Part shown: positions 19,087-52,511 of the stretch, piece by piece
Numbering within the stretch: position 1 is the first letter of the stretch
Layout: each line of letters begins with the position of its first letter
Virus record (IMG/VR): IMGVR_UViG_3300046163_000066
Coordinates: 102,177-166,176 of that record
Source of the DNA: a virus
Strand: one strand, 5' to 3'
DNA: 64,000 bases
Notes under the pieces: model-generated
Databases searched by the model: none
Seen by the model: only the letters and a program-made list of their open reading frames with translations
Told to the model about the DNA's origin: nothing
Made by a program: the position numbers and the translations under genes

Positions 19087-20770
19087 TTAGAGTTCCAACT
19101 CATCGAGGATGCCGTCGTTATCATCGTCGTCATCCAAGTGGTCGGAAAGTCCGTCGTTGTCGTGGTCGAATTGACCGGTAGCATCGTTTCCGTCGTTCTG
19201 CTCGAACCAATCGGAAAGGCCATCGTTGTCGTCATCGAGGTCAGACAAGTCCCAGATACCATCGTTATCGTGGTCGTAACGGTATGATGAGAATGCTCCA
19301 CCGACTTCATCAACGTCAAGAATGTTGTCGTTGTCATCGTCGTCATCCACAGCATCGTTTAGACCGTCGTTATCGTGGTCACGCATAGCGGAAGAACCGT
19401 TGTCGTAAAGGTCTTTGTAGTTGTCAATACCATCGTTATCAATGTCCAAGTCGAAACGGTCTTCAATACCGTCGTTGTCATGGTCATAAATGTCGGTGTT
19501 ATCGTTACCATCATTGACTTCTTCACGGTCATTTAGACCGTCGCCATCGTCATCGTCATCTTCGGCATCATTGATACCGTCGTTGTCGTGGTCCAGAGGT
19601 GAATCATCCATTGAATCAGGGATTCCATCGTTATCGTCATCGTTGTCGAGGTCATCAGGAATGCCGTCTCCATCGTTGTCGTTATCGCCAGACTGGTCTT
19701 GGTTGTCAAGTTGTTGGTCTTGCTGTGTATCAGTTTGTTGTCCCTGTTGGCCTTGCTGACCATTCTGGGTTTGACCTTGCTGTTGTTGGCTTTGCCCGTT
19801 TTGGTTTTGACCATTCTGTTCTTCGGCTTGTTGTTCCGATTGCTGACCGCCTTGCTGACCACCTTGTTGTTGTTGGCCTTGACCATTATCTTGTTGTTGT
19901 CCTTGCTGACCTTGCTGACCTTGTTGGGATTGACCCTGCTGACCCTGTTGGCCTTGTTGTCCTTGTTGTCCCTGTTGGCCTTGCTGTCCTTGCTGTCCTT
20001 GCTGTCCTTGTTGTCCTTGTTGTCCCTGACCTTGACCTTGTTGTTGGCCTTGTCCTTGACCTTGACCTTGACCTTGACCCTGCCCTTGTCCTTGACCTTG
20101 GCCCTGTCCCTGTCCTTGTCCCTTGTCCTTGTCCTTGTCCTTGACCTTGACCCTGACCTTGACCCTGACCCTGACCTTGACCTTGCCCCTGTCCTTGTCC
20201 TTGACCCTGCCCTTGTCCTTGTCCCTGTCCTTGACCTTGACCTTCACCTTGTCCTCCAGCGTCGGATTCTCCGCCACCTTCTGTGCCACCATCGCCGTTA
20301 CCGGCTTGGGACTCTTGGAAATCGGGGTCATAAGCATCGGGGATTCCATCTCCATCGGAGTCAGAATACTCACCATCGTTAGGGTCGGTTGGGAATTGGT
20401 CAGTAGAGTCAGGCTTACCGTCGCCATCAGTATCTGCGTTGTTCGGGTTAGTTCCCTTTGCATATTCTTGAGCGTTGGTTAGACCATCGTTATCTGGGTC
20501 CGCATTTCCATCACCGCCATTGGTGGGATTTAGACCATTACTGACTTCCCATCCATCGGGAAGGCCATCTCCATCGGAGTCGGCATTGTTCATATTGGTG
20601 CCATGAGTTTGTTCTTCAGAGTTGGTCAAACCATCTCCATCCCAATCAGCCCCACCATCGGAAGGGTCGAGTGGGTCAGAACCATCGGCGGCTCCAACAC
20701 CTGCGCTCATAACGAGCATCAGGGTAGTCAGTAGTGCAAGCATCGTATTTTTGAATCTGTTATTTTTCAT
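19087..20770 (-). CDS. Secreted TSP3-repeat / QG-rich calcium-binding protein (frameshifted)
   Basis: Signal peptide at residues 1-27 (TMLALLTTLMLVMSAGVGAA). Then thrombospondin type-3-like repeats (DWDGDGLTNSEE, DSDGDGLPDGWE, DPDNDGLTNAQE), a long Gly-Gln repeat (about 19715-20255), and at least ten more acidic DNDGDGIPD-type repeats to the end. Such repeats bind calcium and are common in secreted marine proteins. The upstream frame breaks inside the QG tract at 20120-20122 and the rest is in the next frame. Neither half alone makes sense. The transcript starts near 20823, giving a 53-nt leader with a hairpin. Confidence 0.75.
19715..20255 (-). repeat. Gly-Gln / Gln-Gln-Gly coding repeat
   Basis: Low-complexity tandem array of GGACAA-like hexamers and CAAGGACAA-like nonamers encoding (GQ)n and (QQG)n. 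It is prone to slippage and mis-assembly. The frame changes within it. Confidence 0.85.
20118..20124 (-). other. Single-base frameshift in the QG tract
   Basis: The gene strand reads CAAGGGACAAGG where the repeat elsewhere has CAAGGACAAGG. One extra G turns (GQ)n into TRTGTGPRSR. Removing it restores one reading frame from 20770 to 19087. Confidence 0.75.
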
Positions 20771-22022: not shown

Positions 22023-22499
22023 TTAAACCTTCGCTTCAAGGTCGTCGTCGAGAACATAGCCTTTAGGCAAATCTTCGGAATCTTCTGGCTGGAATCCTGA
22101 AAGTTTTGAAATCTTAGATTTGAGGTCTTCGGTGCTGGTAGCAGGTGAACGACAACGAGTGCAAAGCAATTCTAAATTGGGAATGATACCATTAAGAGAG
22201 TCCCATGAATAATCTAAAATGTATCTGGGCGTATCACCTGAACTACTTCGACTGGTCCAAACGGCACGTCGGCTGGAGTCTTTAGGAACGATTACCAAAT
22301 CAGATGGGTCATCAAACTTACAACGGCTACAACAGGATTCAAAATAATCCCAAAGATACTGTCGCTTCTGGTCTCGAAGTCTTTGTTTAGAACTGACCGC
22401 TTTATTGACCAGATTTTTGCGAGTCTTATTACGACGATAATACTGCCGATTGTAAGCGTCTTGATACGCTTTTTTCTTGGCTGGGTCGGTGTAAGGCAT
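22023..22499 (-). CDS. Degenerate HNH-type protein
   Basis: The N-terminus MPYTDPAKKKAYQDAYNR then YYRRN is typical of phage HNH endonucleases. The zinc-pair scaffold is present (CCSRC ... LLCTRC). The catalytic histidines expected after the first pair (usually LxxHH) and at the last CH are replaced: LVIVPKDSS and CRS. It is therefore probably a DNA-binding relic or a repurposed regulator rather than a nuclease. Spacing from TATA is 36 bp, with a palindrome over the start. Confidence 0.55.
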   Translation of the reverse strand: MPYTDPAKKKAYQDAYNRQYYRRNKTRKNLVNKAVSSKQRLRDQKRQYLWDYFESCCSRCKFDDPSDLVIVPKDSSRRAVWTSRSSSGDTPRYILDYSWDSLNGIIPNLELLCTRCRSPATSTEDLKSKISKLSGFQPEDSEDLPKGYVLDDDLEAKV

Positions 22500-22559: not shown

Positions 22560-22865
22560 TTAGATGATAAGTCCTGTAATCAAAGCGACCACACCCGGAA
22601 CGGCGGCAACCCAAACTTGCCACCATCTATCGGCTACTTTTTCTTGTTGAGTCAATCTTTGGTCTAACAATTCCATGCGAGTAATCAAAGGAGGTCTGCC
22701 GTTGCCATCTCGAACTACTTTGTTCATGTAATCTAAACTTTCATCAACAGTTTCTAAGCGTTCAGAAACTTGTCCCATCATTTGTTTCATTTCAGAAGTT
22801 TCGGTGACAAAACCTTCTACCATGCGAAGCAAGTCTTGTCGGAACTCGTCAGATTCGGTGGACAT
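22560..22865 (-). CDS. Coiled-coil tail-anchored membrane protein, 101 residues
   Basis: Residues 1-75 are a coiled coil, followed by one C-terminal helix (WWQVWVAAVPGVVALITGLII). The topology is that of a tail-anchored protein, a Get3 client type. No lysis family recognised. Confidence 0.6.
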   Translation of the reverse strand: MSTESDEFRQDLLRMVEGFVTETSEMKQMMGQVSERLETVDESLDYMNKVVRDGNGRPPLITRMELLDQRLTQQEKVADRWWQVWVAAVPGVVALITGLII

Positions 22866-22869
22866 AGTT

Positions 22870-23022
22870 TCACTCTCCAGAACTTAGTTTAGAAATGAGG
22901 GCTGTTAATTGTGTGCTACGAAGTAAAAGTGTATCCATGTGTTTCTCGGTCATGGCGGCCCATGCTACGGCATCATTGGCTCGAAGCGAGGCGGTGGCTA
23001 AAAGTATTTCAATATGTTCCAT
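22870..23022 (-). CDS. Small helical protein, 50 residues
   Basis: MEHIEILLATASLRANDAVA and a Leu/Ser-rich tail; a GTGATAAC site precedes the ATG. It sits 4 bp from both neighbours in a three-gene operon. Confidence 0.5.
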   Translation of the reverse strand: MEHIEILLATASLRANDAVAWAAMTEKHMDTLLLRSTQLTALISKLSSGE

Positions 23023-23026
23023 GTTA

Positions 23027-24745
23027 TCACTTCTTTGGTTTAAGTCCTGCGGCACGAAGTCCGGCTTTGATAGCCTTTTCCTTTTTTGTGTATCTGGCTT
23101 GTTGAGATTTGGTCGGTGACCAGTATTCTGCGACCTCAAGACCGTAAAGATACGGTAATCGGGATTCAAGGATTTCAGTTTGTGGACCCACAGGATTACC
23201 CCAATAAGCGGTGGCTGTTTCTCCATCCCACCAATTTTTAATTTCAATTGAGAACTCCCCACCAATGGGGGCATCAAGAACTGGTCCATGACTGTAAATG
23301 TGAGCCGCAAGTTTGCGAGCGTCTGACAAGGTTTTCATGGGATTTTTGTAATCTCGACAGATGGGGCAAGCATCAAATCGGTAATCTTCTCCAACGTGGA
23401 GTTCAAAACTGCGGTCATACCATTCAGGAGGTGTAGTCAGCGAAAAATACTTGTAGTAAGGTTCGGAAACAAGGAATCCTTCAGAGTCATAGAACTGCCA
23501 AACCAATGCAACTTTGTTTTTGGCTTTGTTTTCCCACGGACTAAACACGAATTGGTTGTTAGTCATATACTCAAGGTATTCTCGGTCTTCAACAACTCCC
23601 CGATAGCCCTTGATTTTGTCAGGAAGGTCACGAAGGTATCTGACGAAACGATACAAAACCCAAGCATAAGTTCGGTCTGTGAAAAACTGACCTGAACCAC
23701 ACTTTTTGTAACCTTGAGAACTCAAGTGATTTTCAATAATGGTGGTTTCATCACTCCAGTATTCATCTTCTAACTCGTTTTCTTCAGTATCAATCCAAAA
23801 AATACCTTTCTTATTGATTCCTTCGGCTCCACGAACCCATCGTTGAGATTTGCCAGCAGGTTTGACTTCCCACATAGAACCGTCGTTGCCACGCATTCGA
23901 GTTCCAATTTTACGCTTAGTTGCTGAAATGTCTGGACCCTTACGACCAGCCTTAGCCTTAGCCTTAGCCTTTGGCTTGGATTTGGATTTGGATTTGGATT
24001 TACGAGTAGCCTTTGGCTTGGCCTTAGCCTTTGGCTTGACTTTGCCGAGAATTACATTGGTTAAAGATTTGAGTTCACGAATTGGGATTTTGTCTTCTTT
24101 ACAACCTTCCCAAAACTCATCAGACTCATCAAGGTATTCCCAATCCCAATTGTTCTGGTTATTCATGGCTTTGATAACTGGTCCACAATATCGGCAATTG
24201 GTTCTGGATGCCTCGTTTCGATGAAACTTTTGAGTGGAATACTTTTCCGTAATTGCATCCCAAGTATCGTAGTATTCATCGTCGCTAATTTTGTCGGCTT
24301 CATAACGCTTTTCTAACGCATTGATTTTCCTTCTGTCGGCGGCACTATACTCATCTTCAGAGGGTTCGCCATCTAAAATGCAAGCGTGTGTTTCATCGTC
24401 AAAGATGTTAGACAAATCAAAGCCGTTATCATAATCATACTTTTCATACATTTCTTCTGAAAGTCCAACGGCGATGCTGTCAATAAAAGTGTAATAGGAA
24501 TCTGGAAGGGATTCTCTTAGCACGGTGTCTCCAGAAGGGCTGGCTGGTCCGTAGGCACCGGATTGAACAATTTTAACATGGATATTATACCAGCCCCAAT
24601 CATGTTGATAGAACTCTTTGTTATCCTGAGTTTTATCGCTTCGCTTGAGCCAATTATCCAAGCCATTTTGTTTTTGTTTCAAAGCCTTTAGCCAATAAGG
24701 TTTCAACACATTCAAGAACTTTTTCTTGGCTTGAAGTGGTGTCAT
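23027..24745 (-). CDS. Large unknown protein with Lys/Ala linker, 572 residues
   Basis: Two globular halves joined by a KAKAKPKAT/KSKSK linker (about residues 240-275). Straight after it comes IGTRMRGNDGSMWEVKP, a short G-x-DG-x-W motif also found in large DNA-virus proteins. Later FDACPICRDY ... AAHIYSHG forms a C2H2-like site. No enzyme motif recognised. A DNA- or virion-associated role is plausible. The start is 23 bp from the TATA box at 24769-24775. Confidence 0.6.
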   Translation of the reverse strand: MTPLQAKKKFLNVLKPYWLKALKQKQNGLDNWLKRSDKTQDNKEFYQHDWGWYNIHVKIVQSGAYGPASPSGDTVLRESLPDSYYTFIDSIAVGLSEEMYEKYDYDNGFDLSNIFDDETHACILDGEPSEDEYSAADRRKINALEKRYEADKISDDEYYDTWDAITEKYSTQKFHRNEASRTNCRYCGPVIKAMNNQNNWDWEYLDESDEFWEGCKEDKIPIRELKSLTNVILGKVKPKAKAKPKATRKSKSKSKSKPKAKAKAKAGRKGPDISATKRKIGTRMRGNDGSMWEVKPAGKSQRWVRGAEGINKKGIFWIDTEENELEDEYWSDETTIIENHLSSQGYKKCGSGQFFTDRTYAWVLYRFVRYLRDLPDKIKGYRGVVEDREYLEYMTNNQFVFSPWENKAKNKVALVWQFYDSEGFLVSEPYYKYFSLTTPPEWYDRSFELHVGEDYRFDACPICRDYKNPMKTLSDARKLAAHIYSHGPVLDAPIGGEFSIEIKNWWDGETATAYWGNPVGPQTEILESRLPYLYGLEVAEYWSPTKSQQARYTKKEKAIKAGLRAAGLKPKK

Positions 24746-24780
24746 GCCATTTGTGGGTCGTTTCTGATACTTAAAGAGTG

Positions 24781-24858
24781 TGGTGGGCTTGCCAAGATTT
24801 GAACTTGGGTCTAACGACCCCCAGCCGTCAAGTATAGGCCAAACTAACCCACAAGCCC
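24781..24858 (-). tRNA. tRNA-Pro(GGG), CCA encoded
   Basis: The cloverleaf folds fully on the minus strand. Acceptor GGGCTTG/CAAGCCC; D-loop with A14, G18G19 and A21; anticodon stem GACGG/TCGTT with loop CTGGGGG (anticodon GGG, G37); 4-nt variable loop; T-arm CCAAG-TTCAAAT-CTTGG; discriminator A then CCA. It is transcribed behind the small RNA at 24860-24928 with one spacer base. A proline tRNA on an element can offset codon-use differences with the host. Confidence 0.9.
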
Positions 24859-24859
24859 G

Positions 24860-24928
24860 TGGTGGACCCCACCGACCCGCTTGGAGGCGAGAGGAGACCG
24901 AAGAAAGAGGTCACAGGCCGGGGAGTCC
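24860..24928 (-). ncRNA. tRNA-like small RNA with 7-bp acceptor stem and ACCA end
   Basis: Ends pair as GGACTCC/GGGGTCC (a T.G wobble on this strand would be a mismatch on the other), followed by A-CCA. Inside are small hairpins (GACC-9-GGTC; CGC-6-GCG) but no canonical T-loop TTCNANN, so it is not a normal tRNA. A TATA box at 24953-24959 predicts transcription from about 24929, one base from the stem. It ends one base before tRNA-Pro, so RNase P processing of the tRNA would release it. Confidence 0.6.
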
Positions 24929-24952
24929 AAGATAATGTATCTCGTATCACTT

Positions 24953-24959
24953 ACTTAAA
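24953..24959 (-). promoter_or_regulatory. Promoter of the tRNA-like RNA / tRNA-Pro transcript
   Basis: The TATA box overlaps the TAA stop of the reductase gene. The 24-bp spacing puts the start at the first base or two of the RNA. Confidence 0.7.
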
Positions 24960-27021
24960 GTTTCACTTCAGATTCTGATTCTGTCATGGATGAAACTGCT
25001 TCGGTAAGAACTGCTTCAACGGTTTCGGATTCAGAAGTGACGAAATCTAAATCACACACGTCGTTATCACAAAATCTTTCAACAACAACTTCTTCACCTT
25101 TGATTCGACCAAAGGAAAGTTTGCCAAGTTTTGACTTGATGGAATCGTAAGTTTCAGCATCAATACTTTCGTAAGGCATTTGTGGGTAAGCACCAAAGTC
25201 AAGTTTCGGCAAAAACGAAATACCCTTGAGTTGATATTGGAAAATATCGAGAGCATTAGCAATTTGAGAACCTTCGGATTCTGGATTGAAAGTTACGGTG
25301 CATGACACTTGGTTGTCTGCCCAGTATCGTTGTGCCAGAGCAGCCATACTCAATTGTTCCCACATGGAAACATCATCAAGAGTTCGCACACCTTCGCCCA
25401 AATCCACAGGGATTTCAACTACTAATGTAGTGGTTTCGCTTCCAAAAGCAGGTTCAATTTTGTAACCAGCCTTTTCCAACGGAGCCACAAGGTTAGAATC
25501 TTTGCCAAGTCTCATGCGTCGAATGTAATATCGAGATTCAGGGAAGTGGATTCCCGGTGTAGCACCTGCCAAAAGTGAAACTGTTCCTGATGGCTTAATG
25601 CTGGTGGTCTTGATAGACTTGGGAATCGCAAACCAGTTGGAATACTTTTCATCAAGTTTCTGAATGTGTCCGTAGCCAACATCCATCCATGAACGAAGTT
25701 CTCCGATGCCACGGCTGGCTACAAATTGTGCAATACCACTCATGGAACATCCGATACGACGGTTGCGTAGCATAACTCGATTGGTTTCTGCCCAATGAGT
25801 TTGACCCAATGTAACGGTTTTAGCATAAAGATACGCATACTTGAGAGTTTCCAGATAATCGTCAAGTGAATCGTGATTGTTGGGGAAAGTTTCAACCAAA
25901 CAGCACAGTTCGTGAGATTCCAATGTTTGTTCCAAACAAGGGTTTCCACCCATCGCTCGATGGTCTTTGAAATCTGGAGCATCAGCCATGCGACCATAAT
26001 CTTTCATGTTTTCCAACCAAGCATAACCGGGTTCACCGTTAAGTCGCACACGTTCTGCTGAAGGTTCATAGTCCATACCAAGTTCTGCAAAGATAGAATT
26101 GTTGGATGTCCAACCGTATTCGGCTCGGTGCGGATTAGCCTCGTAGTTTTTGAGGTCAAGGTATTCTTCGTTGTCTGGTTCTCCAAACACAATTTCAGCA
26201 GTTCGACGGACGTTTCCTGCGACGACACACTTACCAATGAGATTCATAATATCAACAATGGAAGTAATAGAAATAGGACCTCCTGTTTCAGCGTTGAGAA
26301 TCCTTCGGACATCATCGTGAAGTTGCACCAAAGGTGCGGGTCCAGAACTTTCACCTCCGAAACCTCGGATGCGAACTCCAGCAGGTCGGATTTCAGAGTA
26401 ATCAAACTCGACTGGGGCTGTGCCGTAGGCATACGAATCCAGCAAAAGTTTCAAGGATTCTACCCAGCCTTCACGAGTGTCTGGAATAACAACTGTTTCA
26501 GATGAACGATGTTCGGCAGGTCCTTTGACTACCATTGTTTCAGCACCTTTGGTATCGAAACCTACTCCGACTCCCAACATGGAAGCATCCATCAGGAAAG
26601 TGAAAGGCTTAGAAAAGTCTGAAGAAATGTGGTCGGTGGATACGAAAGCACAATTGTTGAGAGCAGCAAACAGTCCCTTTTCTTCGGTGATTGGTGTTCC
26701 CATAGCCCAAAGACCTCGACCGGGTGGTAGGAACTTCATGTTAAAGATGCGGTCATACATGGCTTGAGCCGAGTGTTGTGCTTTCCAAGCATTCCAACCG
26801 AGACCGTGTGATTCAATGTGTCGCTTTTGCATATTGAAAGTTCCTTCCACAACACGTTGCACAGTTTCAAACCATTGTTCGTTCTTGCCGTCAGCCTTCA
26901 AGCGAGAGTAAGTTCGATTATAGACCAATTCACCGAGTCCGTTGAAACCAAACGGTGCTTTGCGTCGGCGGTATTTATTCACAAAATTATCGGAAAGGCT
27001 GAAACGGTTTTGGTTAGTCAT
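24955..27021 (-). CDS. nrdJ: Class II (adenosylcobalamin-dependent) ribonucleotide reductase
   Basis: 688 residues. Recognisable blocks are GRGLWAMGTPITEEKG with NNCAF, NVRRTAEIVFG, NPCLEQTLESHELCCLVE (substrate loop with the radical cysteine), SIKPSGTVSLLAG near the active site, and AALAQRYWADNQVSCTV. The order fits the monomeric B12-dependent triphosphate reductase family, which turns ribonucleotides into deoxyribonucleotides. It would raise the dNTP supply for replication. The TATA variant at 27064-27070 is 42 bp from the ATG, so there is an 18-nt leader. The TAA stop forms part of the next promoter. Confidence 0.92.
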   Translation of the reverse strand: MTNQNRFSLSDNFVNKYRRRKAPFGFNGLGELVYNRTYSRLKADGKNEQWFETVQRVVEGTFNMQKRHIESHGLGWNAWKAQHSAQAMYDRIFNMKFLPPGRGLWAMGTPITEEKGLFAALNNCAFVSTDHISSDFSKPFTFLMDASMLGVGVGFDTKGAETMVVKGPAEHRSSETVVIPDTREGWVESLKLLLDSYAYGTAPVEFDYSEIRPAGVRIRGFGGESSGPAPLVQLHDDVRRILNAETGGPISITSIVDIMNLIGKCVVAGNVRRTAEIVFGEPDNEEYLDLKNYEANPHRAEYGWTSNNSIFAELGMDYEPSAERVRLNGEPGYAWLENMKDYGRMADAPDFKDHRAMGGNPCLEQTLESHELCCLVETFPNNHDSLDDYLETLKYAYLYAKTVTLGQTHWAETNRVMLRNRRIGCSMSGIAQFVASRGIGELRSWMDVGYGHIQKLDEKYSNWFAIPKSIKTTSIKPSGTVSLLAGATPGIHFPESRYYIRRMRLGKDSNLVAPLEKAGYKIEPAFGSETTTLVVEIPVDLGEGVRTLDDVSMWEQLSMAALAQRYWADNQVSCTVTFNPESEGSQIANALDIFQYQLKGISFLPKLDFGAYPQMPYESIDAETYDSIKSKLGKLSFGRIKGEEVVVERFCDNDVCDLDFVTSESETVEAVLTEAVSSMTESESEVKL

Positions 27022-49714: not shown

Positions 49715-52480
49715 TTAAACCACCGGATTTTGAAATGGCTCTTGGAAATACATGGATTCTGCGATAGATTCTGCAAACTCTTCTTCTTGGTTGCTATTAT
49801 CGAAAGGATAGATTTCTTCCATGTCCCAAAGTTCACACAATACATGACCGAGTTCGTGCCAAACTGTTGTGGCTACCGCAGTTTCCAATGGGACTCCGTA
49901 TTGGTCAGCAGATTCTCGGATGGCATCAGAAGATAACATGATGATAGGAATGTGGCTGGCAGTTTGGCTTCGGAAACGTGCTACATGACTACTACGGCCA
50001 AAAGCATCTGCGGAGACGAAAACAAAGTGTGGCTTGGTATGTAACTGAAAAGTTTCAGGTAAATCTGTTCGAGACTGATATTGAGAAACAGCAGATTCGG
50101 CAAAAGAAAGCATTTCTGGGTCAGAAGGAATCAAGCCGTAAGTTTCATCAATGCCTTCAATTTCAATTTCTAATTGTTCATCGTGCAAAGCACCCTCCGC
50201 TGCTGCGGCTGCGGCTGGTGGAACAATGCTGGTCGGAACAAGAACTTCGGTATCAACGTAACGAAAATAATCTCGCCAAATTGCTCCGCAACCTTCTGCT
50301 TGACAAGTAACATCTGTTGTTACTGTGCCTTCTCCATCGCCATCTAAGCCATCCGTAGTAATATCTTCAGAACGACAATAAATACAACGAACTGGTTCTA
50401 AAGGAAACTCAACTGGCTTTGTGATTATTTGGGGTCGGGCAATCCAATTAAGAACTGCTTGAGTTGGAACTGGCATATCTTCAAAAGTTTCGGCTCGATA
50501 TTGTTTGACTACTGCTCGAATGTCATCAGAGTATCTGGCATTTTGTTTGCCAGCCTTCGTAGCGGCTTGCTTTTGTCGCTTGGCTTTAGCGTAAAGATTC
50601 TTTTGCTTGAGTGCTGCAACGGCTTTGGCTGGGAAGTAGGGTTCTCCTGTGGTTGAAGACTTTTTGCCTGATGCCGTTTTCCACTTTTGTTTGCTCCAAT
50701 CCGAGAGGTCTTGTTGCTTTTTAGTTTTGGACCCTTTGTAGGGTTGGAGACCTTTCTTACTACACGCTGCCTCATACTGACGTTTGAGTTCTTGAGACTT
50801 TCGAGCCGACCATTGACCTGCCTTTGTTCCCATGATGGCTTGTTTCTTAATTTTGTTTTTGAGTTTCCTACGAATCTTGGCTTGGGCTTTGCCGTAAGTA
50901 GAATCATAGTTGTCTTCCGCAGCGAATTGACCACCTTTCGCTTCCGATTCAGCAAGATAAATTAGAGTATTTAATTCAAGGTGTTTTGCCAAAAACTCAT
51001 CTTTTGGTTCAACAAGACCAAACGGTTCTATAAAACCCATCCATTTCCAAAAATTAACACTTTCTGGCACAGACTCTACCACGATGTATGCAGCACCTTG
51101 TTTGTAGGCCCAATCCTTAAAGTTCTCAAACTCGGCCCTTCCAAAACCATTTCCTTTAGGACTCGCAAACATATCAATTCGGGCAACTTTTTGACCTGTG
51201 TTTTTGATGATTTCTATCTTTGCATCAATATATACCTCTTCGTTTGGTGAAACATAAATTATATCCTCCGCACCTAAGTTGATTGGCAAACAATCATAGC
51301 AATAAGTTCCTGCTTGAATAGTTGTCAAACCTTCAGTTGTGTGGCATTCACAACACCTTCGAGTTTCGGATTCCCATTCAACGTCTTCCCATTCTGGTTC
51401 AGTCTTTTTCTTTGACTTCTCGTTCCATTCTATTTCTTCTTGCCATTCGTTTTCGGCTTCCGAGACTTTCGGCTCAGATGCTTCGGCTGCTTCTTTCTTG
51501 TGCTTTCGGAAGTGAGAATCAATGCTGGCTCGATTATACGCTGAGATGGTTTCACCACAAAGAGGACAATCAACGGTGAGTCCAAACTTTTGCAGAGTGA
51601 TGTCTCCTTGAGATTTGACAGTTTCGTAGTTATCTGACCACTCACAACTTAGACATCTGAAAGTTTTGCCCTTAGAGGTGGTTTTCTTCCAGAACAAATC
51701 TACGTTGCCACAGTTAGGACAACCAAGATTTCCATACGAGTCGTCGTGGTCTCCAGCCTCAATTTGAGATTTCAACTCTTCTGCGGTGGGTGCATTATCG
51801 TAACCCAAATCAACCCAATTACCTGCGGGTAACCAATCAAATGCTTCGCTGTTGAAAGTTTTCGACGGTGGTTCTGCTAATCCAATGACTCCACAAGCCA
51901 AACGTTTTCCAGCGTTGCCTGTCTTGAGTGATTCTTCGTTGCCGCCTTGTCCCAAATCATCTTCATCAGCGTGAACAATCATCATGCGGCCTAACACACC
52001 ATATTTGGAACCATCTAATTTGGCTTTAGGAAGAAATAAAGAACCTTTGGAAACTCGGTTCTTAGAAGAAATGTTGCCCAAATCTCCCATGTGTCGAACA
52101 TCAGAAGTTAAACCTCCATGAGTGGTGTTGTCTGGATTAAAATGAGCGCAAGCGGAGGTGCATCCATCAGTTAAGTCTCCGTATTCGTGAATATGGAATC
52201 CATGAAGTCCGTCATACAAACCACGGATTTCATAATCAATTTTTAGTCCATCTCCTGTTTCTTCTAAGTGAATTGTTCCTGAAACTTTTGGGTTGCTGGA
52301 AGATGCGGGGTCATGTTCTAAAAATGCAACACCATAACGAGTATCAGACTCTGCCCGAAGTGATGTGGGTCCAAAACCATACTTGAGTGAATCTGTTGTG
52401 AAGTCTCCAGTAATAACTGAACTGGTTGCCAAGTCCCAATCGTTGTAATCAACGATAGATTGGTCTGGTTGATACTTCAT
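49715..52480 (-). CDS. Multidomain fusion: Cu/Zn SOD, zinc fingers, GNAT-like, DUF5872-like, HELGH zincin
   Basis: 921 residues. About 45-205: Cu/Zn superoxide dismutase (GFHIHEYGDLTDGCTSAC, HFNP, RHMGDLGNI, VHADEDDLG, NAGKRLACGVIGL), copper and zinc ligands kept. About 250-400: zinc ribbons (CPNCGN...CLSC; CPLCGE...HFRKH; CCECH...CYDC). About 430-500: GNAT-like end (PKGNGFGRAEFENF ... VNFWKWMGF). About 525-670: basic block KAGQWSARKSQELKRQYEAA ... GEPYFPAKAVAAL of the DUF5872 type, flanked by QFAAE and YRAETFE boxes. Then a ribbon and, near 870, VWHELGHVL with EFAESIAE, a zinc metallopeptidase. Parts are probably separated by cleavage. Confidence 0.75.
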   Translation of the reverse strand: MKYQPDQSIVDYNDWDLATSSVITGDFTTDSLKYGFGPTSLRAESDTRYGVAFLEHDPASSSNPKVSGTIHLEETGDGLKIDYEIRGLYDGLHGFHIHEYGDLTDGCTSACAHFNPDNTTHGGLTSDVRHMGDLGNISSKNRVSKGSLFLPKAKLDGSKYGVLGRMMIVHADEDDLGQGGNEESLKTGNAGKRLACGVIGLAEPPSKTFNSEAFDWLPAGNWVDLGYDNAPTAEELKSQIEAGDHDDSYGNLGCPNCGNVDLFWKKTTSKGKTFRCLSCEWSDNYETVKSQGDITLQKFGLTVDCPLCGETISAYNRASIDSHFRKHKKEAAEASEPKVSEAENEWQEEIEWNEKSKKKTEPEWEDVEWESETRRCCECHTTEGLTTIQAGTYCYDCLPINLGAEDIIYVSPNEEVYIDAKIEIIKNTGQKVARIDMFASPKGNGFGRAEFENFKDWAYKQGAAYIVVESVPESVNFWKWMGFIEPFGLVEPKDEFLAKHLELNTLIYLAESEAKGGQFAAEDNYDSTYGKAQAKIRRKLKNKIKKQAIMGTKAGQWSARKSQELKRQYEAACSKKGLQPYKGSKTKKQQDLSDWSKQKWKTASGKKSSTTGEPYFPAKAVAALKQKNLYAKAKRQKQAATKAGKQNARYSDDIRAVVKQYRAETFEDMPVPTQAVLNWIARPQIITKPVEFPLEPVRCIYCRSEDITTDGLDGDGEGTVTTDVTCQAEGCGAIWRDYFRYVDTEVLVPTSIVPPAAAAAAEGALHDEQLEIEIEGIDETYGLIPSDPEMLSFAESAVSQYQSRTDLPETFQLHTKPHFVFVSADAFGRSSHVARFRSQTASHIPIIMLSSDAIRESADQYGVPLETAVATTVWHELGHVLCELWDMEEIYPFDNSNQEEEFAESIAESMYFQEPFQNPVV

Positions 52481-52511
52481 CAACAATATGTTGATGTTTC
52501 TGATACTTAAA
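52478..52511 (-). promoter_or_regulatory. TATA box plus perfect 8-bp palindrome over the start codon
   Basis: CATCAACA-3-TGTTGATG (52478-52496) includes the ATG at 52480; TATA at 52505-52511. It excludes TTG 52486. Confidence 0.75.

Follow-up and report, generated by a model that had tools for sequence, protein, structure and literature searches.

Tailed viruses carry tRNA genes, and the tRNA cluster of phage T4 also contains stable small RNAs. RNase P removes tRNA leaders in the course of maturation. Viruses of Poseidoniales are, to our knowledge, known from metagenomes only. In a text search of one study on Poseidoniales viruses, the word "tRNA" was absent (PMC10160649). A dicistronic tRNA-sRNA precursor has been described in Nanoarchaeum; in the portion of that study drawn on here, the sRNA follows the tRNA and owes its 5′ end to RNase Z (PMC3491384).

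The window analysed here, a stretch of 64,000 nt, comprises bases 102177–166176 of a 166,176-base virus record (IMGVR_UViG_3300046163_000066); positions below refer to this window unless stated otherwise. The record is of archaeal type, and so are the genes near the locus of interest, which encode PCNA, an ERCC4 nuclease, a class II ribonucleotide reductase (RNR) and a match to the DNA polymerase alpha/epsilon subunit B. Downstream of the reductase gene, on the minus strand, lie a 69-nt element that is predicted to fold into a rod-like hairpin ending in ACCA (24860–24928) and a tRNA-Pro gene. We give roughly even chances to the reading that a promoter drives a hairpin-tRNA precursor, which RNase P would split and from which the hairpin would persist as a small non-coding RNA. 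One archaeal-type viral promoter would yield a precursor of ~148 nt, consisting of the 69-nt rod hairpin, one linker base and a tRNA-Pro(GGG) derived from Poseidoniales. The RNase P of the host would cut at the 5′ end of the tRNA. In this simplest reading, one transcript and one cut would give two products: a mature tRNA supporting CCU/CCC decoding and a ~70-nt hairpin RNA with a 5′ triphosphate, i.e., a virus-specific structured leader. We infer transcription, RNase P cleavage, the stability of the hairpin and any role it may have.

As with the tRNA genes of tailed viruses, a large viral genome here harbours a tRNA of host origin whose stems are intact, but the locus differs from them in having a single tRNA, a promoter of its own and a long structured leader that the host copies lack. 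As in the phage T4 cluster, a non-tRNA RNA, whose stability is here predicted, lies beside a viral tRNA; T4, however, is a bacterial phage, and no sequence relation is claimed. The part of the Nanoarchaeum report considered here offers a similar arrangement, in which a small RNA of an archaeon adjoins a tRNA within a single predicted precursor and gains one of its ends through tRNA processing (PMC3491384). In contrast to the precursor described there, the viral hairpin precedes the tRNA, RNase P would be the cutting enzyme, C/D boxes are lacking and the carrier is a virus (PMC3491384).

Calibration of the promoter across the viral genome

The gene for the class II (B12-dependent) RNR (24955–27021, minus strand; an ORF of 688 aa with the Pfam domains RNR_Alpha, RNR-II insertion and barrel) ends with the stop codon TAA at 24955–24957, which is overlapped by the TATA box TTTAAGTA at 24952–24959 (minus strand). 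The box belongs to a motif, TTTAA[AG]TA, with 91 occurrences in the 166-kb record, against 13.3 ± 3.2 in simulated sequence. Counted from the first T of the motif, an ATG start follows at 30 nt in 50 cases and at 31 nt in 11 cases. This spacing fits leaderless genes, and the start site is fixed by this calibration. At the hairpin-tRNA unit, a T stands at distance 30, and G24928, the first stem base and base 1 of the 69-nt element, follows at distance 31. A shift of the start to distance 31 is expected here because those of the listed 31-nt cases that were read carry a pyrimidine at distance 30. Both the box embedded in the reductase stop and the start at the first base of the 69-nt RNA had been part of the original prediction, and the genome-wide spacing supports the latter, with G24928 as the predicted start.

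A second TTTAAGTA box lies directly behind the tRNA (24768–24775, minus strand). It is followed, at a distance of exactly 30 nt, by the ATG of the next gene, an ORF for a predicted protein of 572 aa (23027–24745, minus strand). Of the 26 boxes without an ATG at 28–32 nt, none is followed by an RNA nearly as stable as that of the hairpin-tRNA unit (−32.4 kcal/mol, z = −3.8); the runner-up reaches z = −3.15 at −13.5 kcal/mol. The promoter, from which the unit is presumably transcribed, is well supported by the sequence pattern, and its placement agrees with hairpin and tRNA on a single predicted transcript. Several short sequences recur after TTTAAGTA boxes, namely TCAGA, GTCG/GTTGA and AGTG/GGTG (e.g., after 24952–24959 and 24768–24775); they may represent promoter classes with different timing.

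Predicted fold of the 69-nt element

The termini of the element read GGACUCC...GGGGUCC-ACCA, with a U-G wobble as the fifth pair. In the predicted fold, the seven terminal pairs are followed by a bulged U, nine further pairs and an apical stem of four pairs that closes a pyrimidine loop; a 15-nt pyrimidine-rich bulge protrudes on one side. The rod thereby comprises 16 pairs with one bulge. On its own, the element folds to −32.0 kcal/mol, vs about −23 on average for shuffled sequences (z = −3.17, 10 of 2000 shuffles; with flanks, z = −3.68, 0 of 200 shuffles). The opposite strand folds only to −22.6 kcal/mol, which agrees with the earlier argument that the wobble pair speaks for the minus strand. 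The element has a GC content of 67%, vs 54% for the tRNA and 44% for the genome; its composition is foreign to the virus.

A single base, C24859, corresponding to position N-1 of the tRNA, separates the element from tRNA-Pro(GGG) at 24781–24858, just as originally described. According to the sequence and the fold of the whole unit, the hairpin stem is joined to the tRNA by an unpaired ACCAC linker (24859–24863, minus strand). In the predicted 148-nt precursor, the pairs of the terminal stem have probabilities of 0.998–1.0, and only 0.01 leader-tRNA pairs are expected; the hairpin is thus modeled as folding independently of the tRNA.

Searching for known classes of archaeal small RNA, we found neither the C box RUGAUGA nor the D box CUGA in the 69-nt sequence, and the best match among C/D families in Rfam scored 17.4 bits vs a cutoff of 64. 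As for H/ACA RNAs, an ACA (ANA) box is absent directly 3′ of the stem, where the tail reads ACCAC, and instead of a two-sided internal pocket the predicted fold has a one-base bulge. The complementarity of the loops to viral gene starts was no better than that of shuffled loops. At record position about 8547 (plus strand), the side bulge of the hairpin has a perfect 10-nt complement, TTGGAGGCGA, which lies ahead of a gene start and spans GGAGG; here, too, the match is no better than with shuffled loops.

Host affiliation of the tRNA and distribution of the unit

The tRNA-Pro gene (24781–24858, minus strand; anticodon GGG, CCA encoded) was identified by ARAGORN, by Rfam model RF00005 (47.2 bits) and by its identity to host genes, and it is the sole tRNA of the record. 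It is at best 90.5% identical to tRNA-Pro of Poseidoniales (Marine Group II), with which it shares the arms and the D-loop sequence. Compared with the commonest host sequence, one acceptor pair and one T-stem pair are altered on both sides, and the acceptor, anticodon and T stems remain paired despite the base differences. The tRNA pattern was found in at least 115 stretches of a genome collection; among the 80 listed, nearly all came from Poseidoniales or "Euryarchaeota archaeon" marine genomes. Together, the tRNA and the gene content point to Poseidoniales as the probable host. The tRNA also fits the codon demand of the virus, as CCU and CCC account for 54% of the 2356 viral proline codons in a crude gene call.

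Unlike the viral copy, the Poseidoniales genes directly follow a gene that by sequence reading has an rpb10-like end, and they have neither a leader nor a sequence corresponding to the 69-nt element. Of 113 host copies, 33 encode the CCA. None of 129 sampled regions upstream of host tRNAs contained a stable RNA with z ≤ −3, in a control that is biased because it consists mostly of tRNA-Pro behind a coding gene. Some Poseidoniales tRNA-Pro genes possess complementary flanks (AGGAG...CTCCT; GGCAA...TGCC), which might lengthen the acceptor stem of the precursor. One contig labelled as Rhodobiaceae bacterium bears the rpb10-tRNA-Pro arrangement of Poseidoniales, probably due to a binning error.

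Among viruses, the best relative has an RNR that is 85% identical, and it is the only one of 80 RNR loci closer than 75%. It keeps the gene order ERCC4-PCNA-RNR, followed by orthologues of the window genes 22560–22865 and 22023–22499, and lacks the element, tRNA-Pro and the 572-aa gene at the syntenic locus as well as any tRNA on its 40.6-kb contig. Because all three are missing there, the unit of leader, tRNA and 572-aa gene constitutes a lineage-specific insertion or loss. The region from the RNR to the gene at 22560–22865 (window 22560–24955) appears as a variable insertion site. Two further related virus records contain neither element nor tRNA. For the polymerase small-subunit-like protein, two relative records were found at 62%, and for PCNA one relative, which lies on the contig of the best RNR relative; searches with ERCC4 and with the 572-aa protein gave no relatives.

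For the leader itself, BLASTN against 293 Poseidoniales genomes returned 15 matches at E 0.05, which is chance level. A covariance model, weak because it was built from a single sequence, recovered the element and no other sequence in four virus records and had no match in 146 genomes. Exact tRNA patterns were not found in viral contigs, and a phage collection gave no match. As no second copy of the element turned up in any searched collection, neither covariation nor conservation stands behind the fold.

Elsewhere in the window, a 923-aa protein (49715–52486) carries, close to the N terminus, a Cu/Zn superoxide dismutase domain that is fused to a long remainder. Two overlapping minus-strand ORFs at 19087–20770 contain aspartate-rich repeats and long GQ repeats; the pair looks like a single gene with a change of frame inside the repeat, owing to a sequencing error or a real frameshift.

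Possible roles of the hairpin

The original prediction had called the element tRNA-like. The 7-bp end stem followed by ACCA is indeed present (GGACUCC/GGGGUCC-ACCA), but this stem continues into one long rod hairpin. The seven terminal pairs, the ACCA, a length near that of a tRNA and the tandem position would all suit a second tRNA gene that had lost its D- and T-arms and kept acceptor stem and CCA. However, RF00005 matches the neighbouring tRNA only, even at an E limit of 5, ARAGORN does not list the element, and no T-arm adjoins the acceptor-like stem, next to which at most 3 of the 5 T-stem pairs can form. The best tRNA-like three-stem fold (−20.5 kcal/mol) is worse than the rod by 11.5 kcal/mol at 37 °C and by 13 kcal/mol at 15 °C. 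Furthermore, the 293 Poseidoniales genomes searched give no relation above chance, and a long continuous rod is not what decay would be expected to leave. These models argue that the hairpin is not a tRNA; the tRNA-like label is not supported, and an origin by decay of a host tRNA copy is very unlikely. A functional tRNA mimic, in which the ACCA end and the acceptor-like stem would engage the CCA enzyme, a synthetase or RNase P, strikes us as hardly credible. Its terminal stem of 7 bp at both ends plus NCCA arose in only 0.16% of shuffled sequences, but stem plus NCCA anywhere arose in 3.8%; given this wider test and the post hoc choice of the feature, the ACCA end alone is weak evidence and probably incidental. 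Moreover, RNase P would leave ACCAC, not ACCA, unless trimming followed, and the A of ACCA would be paired if transcription began one base earlier.

Possible, though tentative, is a hairpin that only aids expression or processing of the tRNA, by sealing the 5′ end, preventing leader-tRNA pairing and offering RNase P a short single-stranded linker, and that is then degraded; a spacer with a function in processing had been among the options of the original prediction. The position directly between promoter and tRNA, the predicted independent folding and the 5-nt linker suit such an aid, but host tRNA-Pro genes manage without a hairpin, and a start adjoining the tRNA would be simpler. It is unlikely that the element is a neutral passenger, a functionless GC-rich stretch brought in together with the tRNA cassette. 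Its foreign composition and its absence, together with tRNA and next gene, from the syntenic relative would be expected of a passenger, yet composition-matched shuffles fold less stably, and transcription is predicted to start right at the first stem base. A recent chance gain of a GC-rich leader could produce the same picture. That a GC-rich 69-nt rod is kept before a tRNA in a virus with many leaderless genes suggests that the rod has a use. Its use as a trans-acting viral non-coding RNA, released by RNase P, matured to a 69-nt rod ending in ACCA and acting on host translation or RNA processing, is quite improbable.

Returning to the reading of a precursor split by RNase P, a promoter calibrated across the genome, whose predicted start falls exactly on a stable hairpin that is linked to a tRNA of host origin, makes for a concrete, testable candidate for a non-coding RNA in Poseidoniales viruses. 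The hairpin-tRNA unit would be one way for a virus to express a captured tRNA outside the host operon, and its hairpin, if stable as an RNA, would be released by RNase P.
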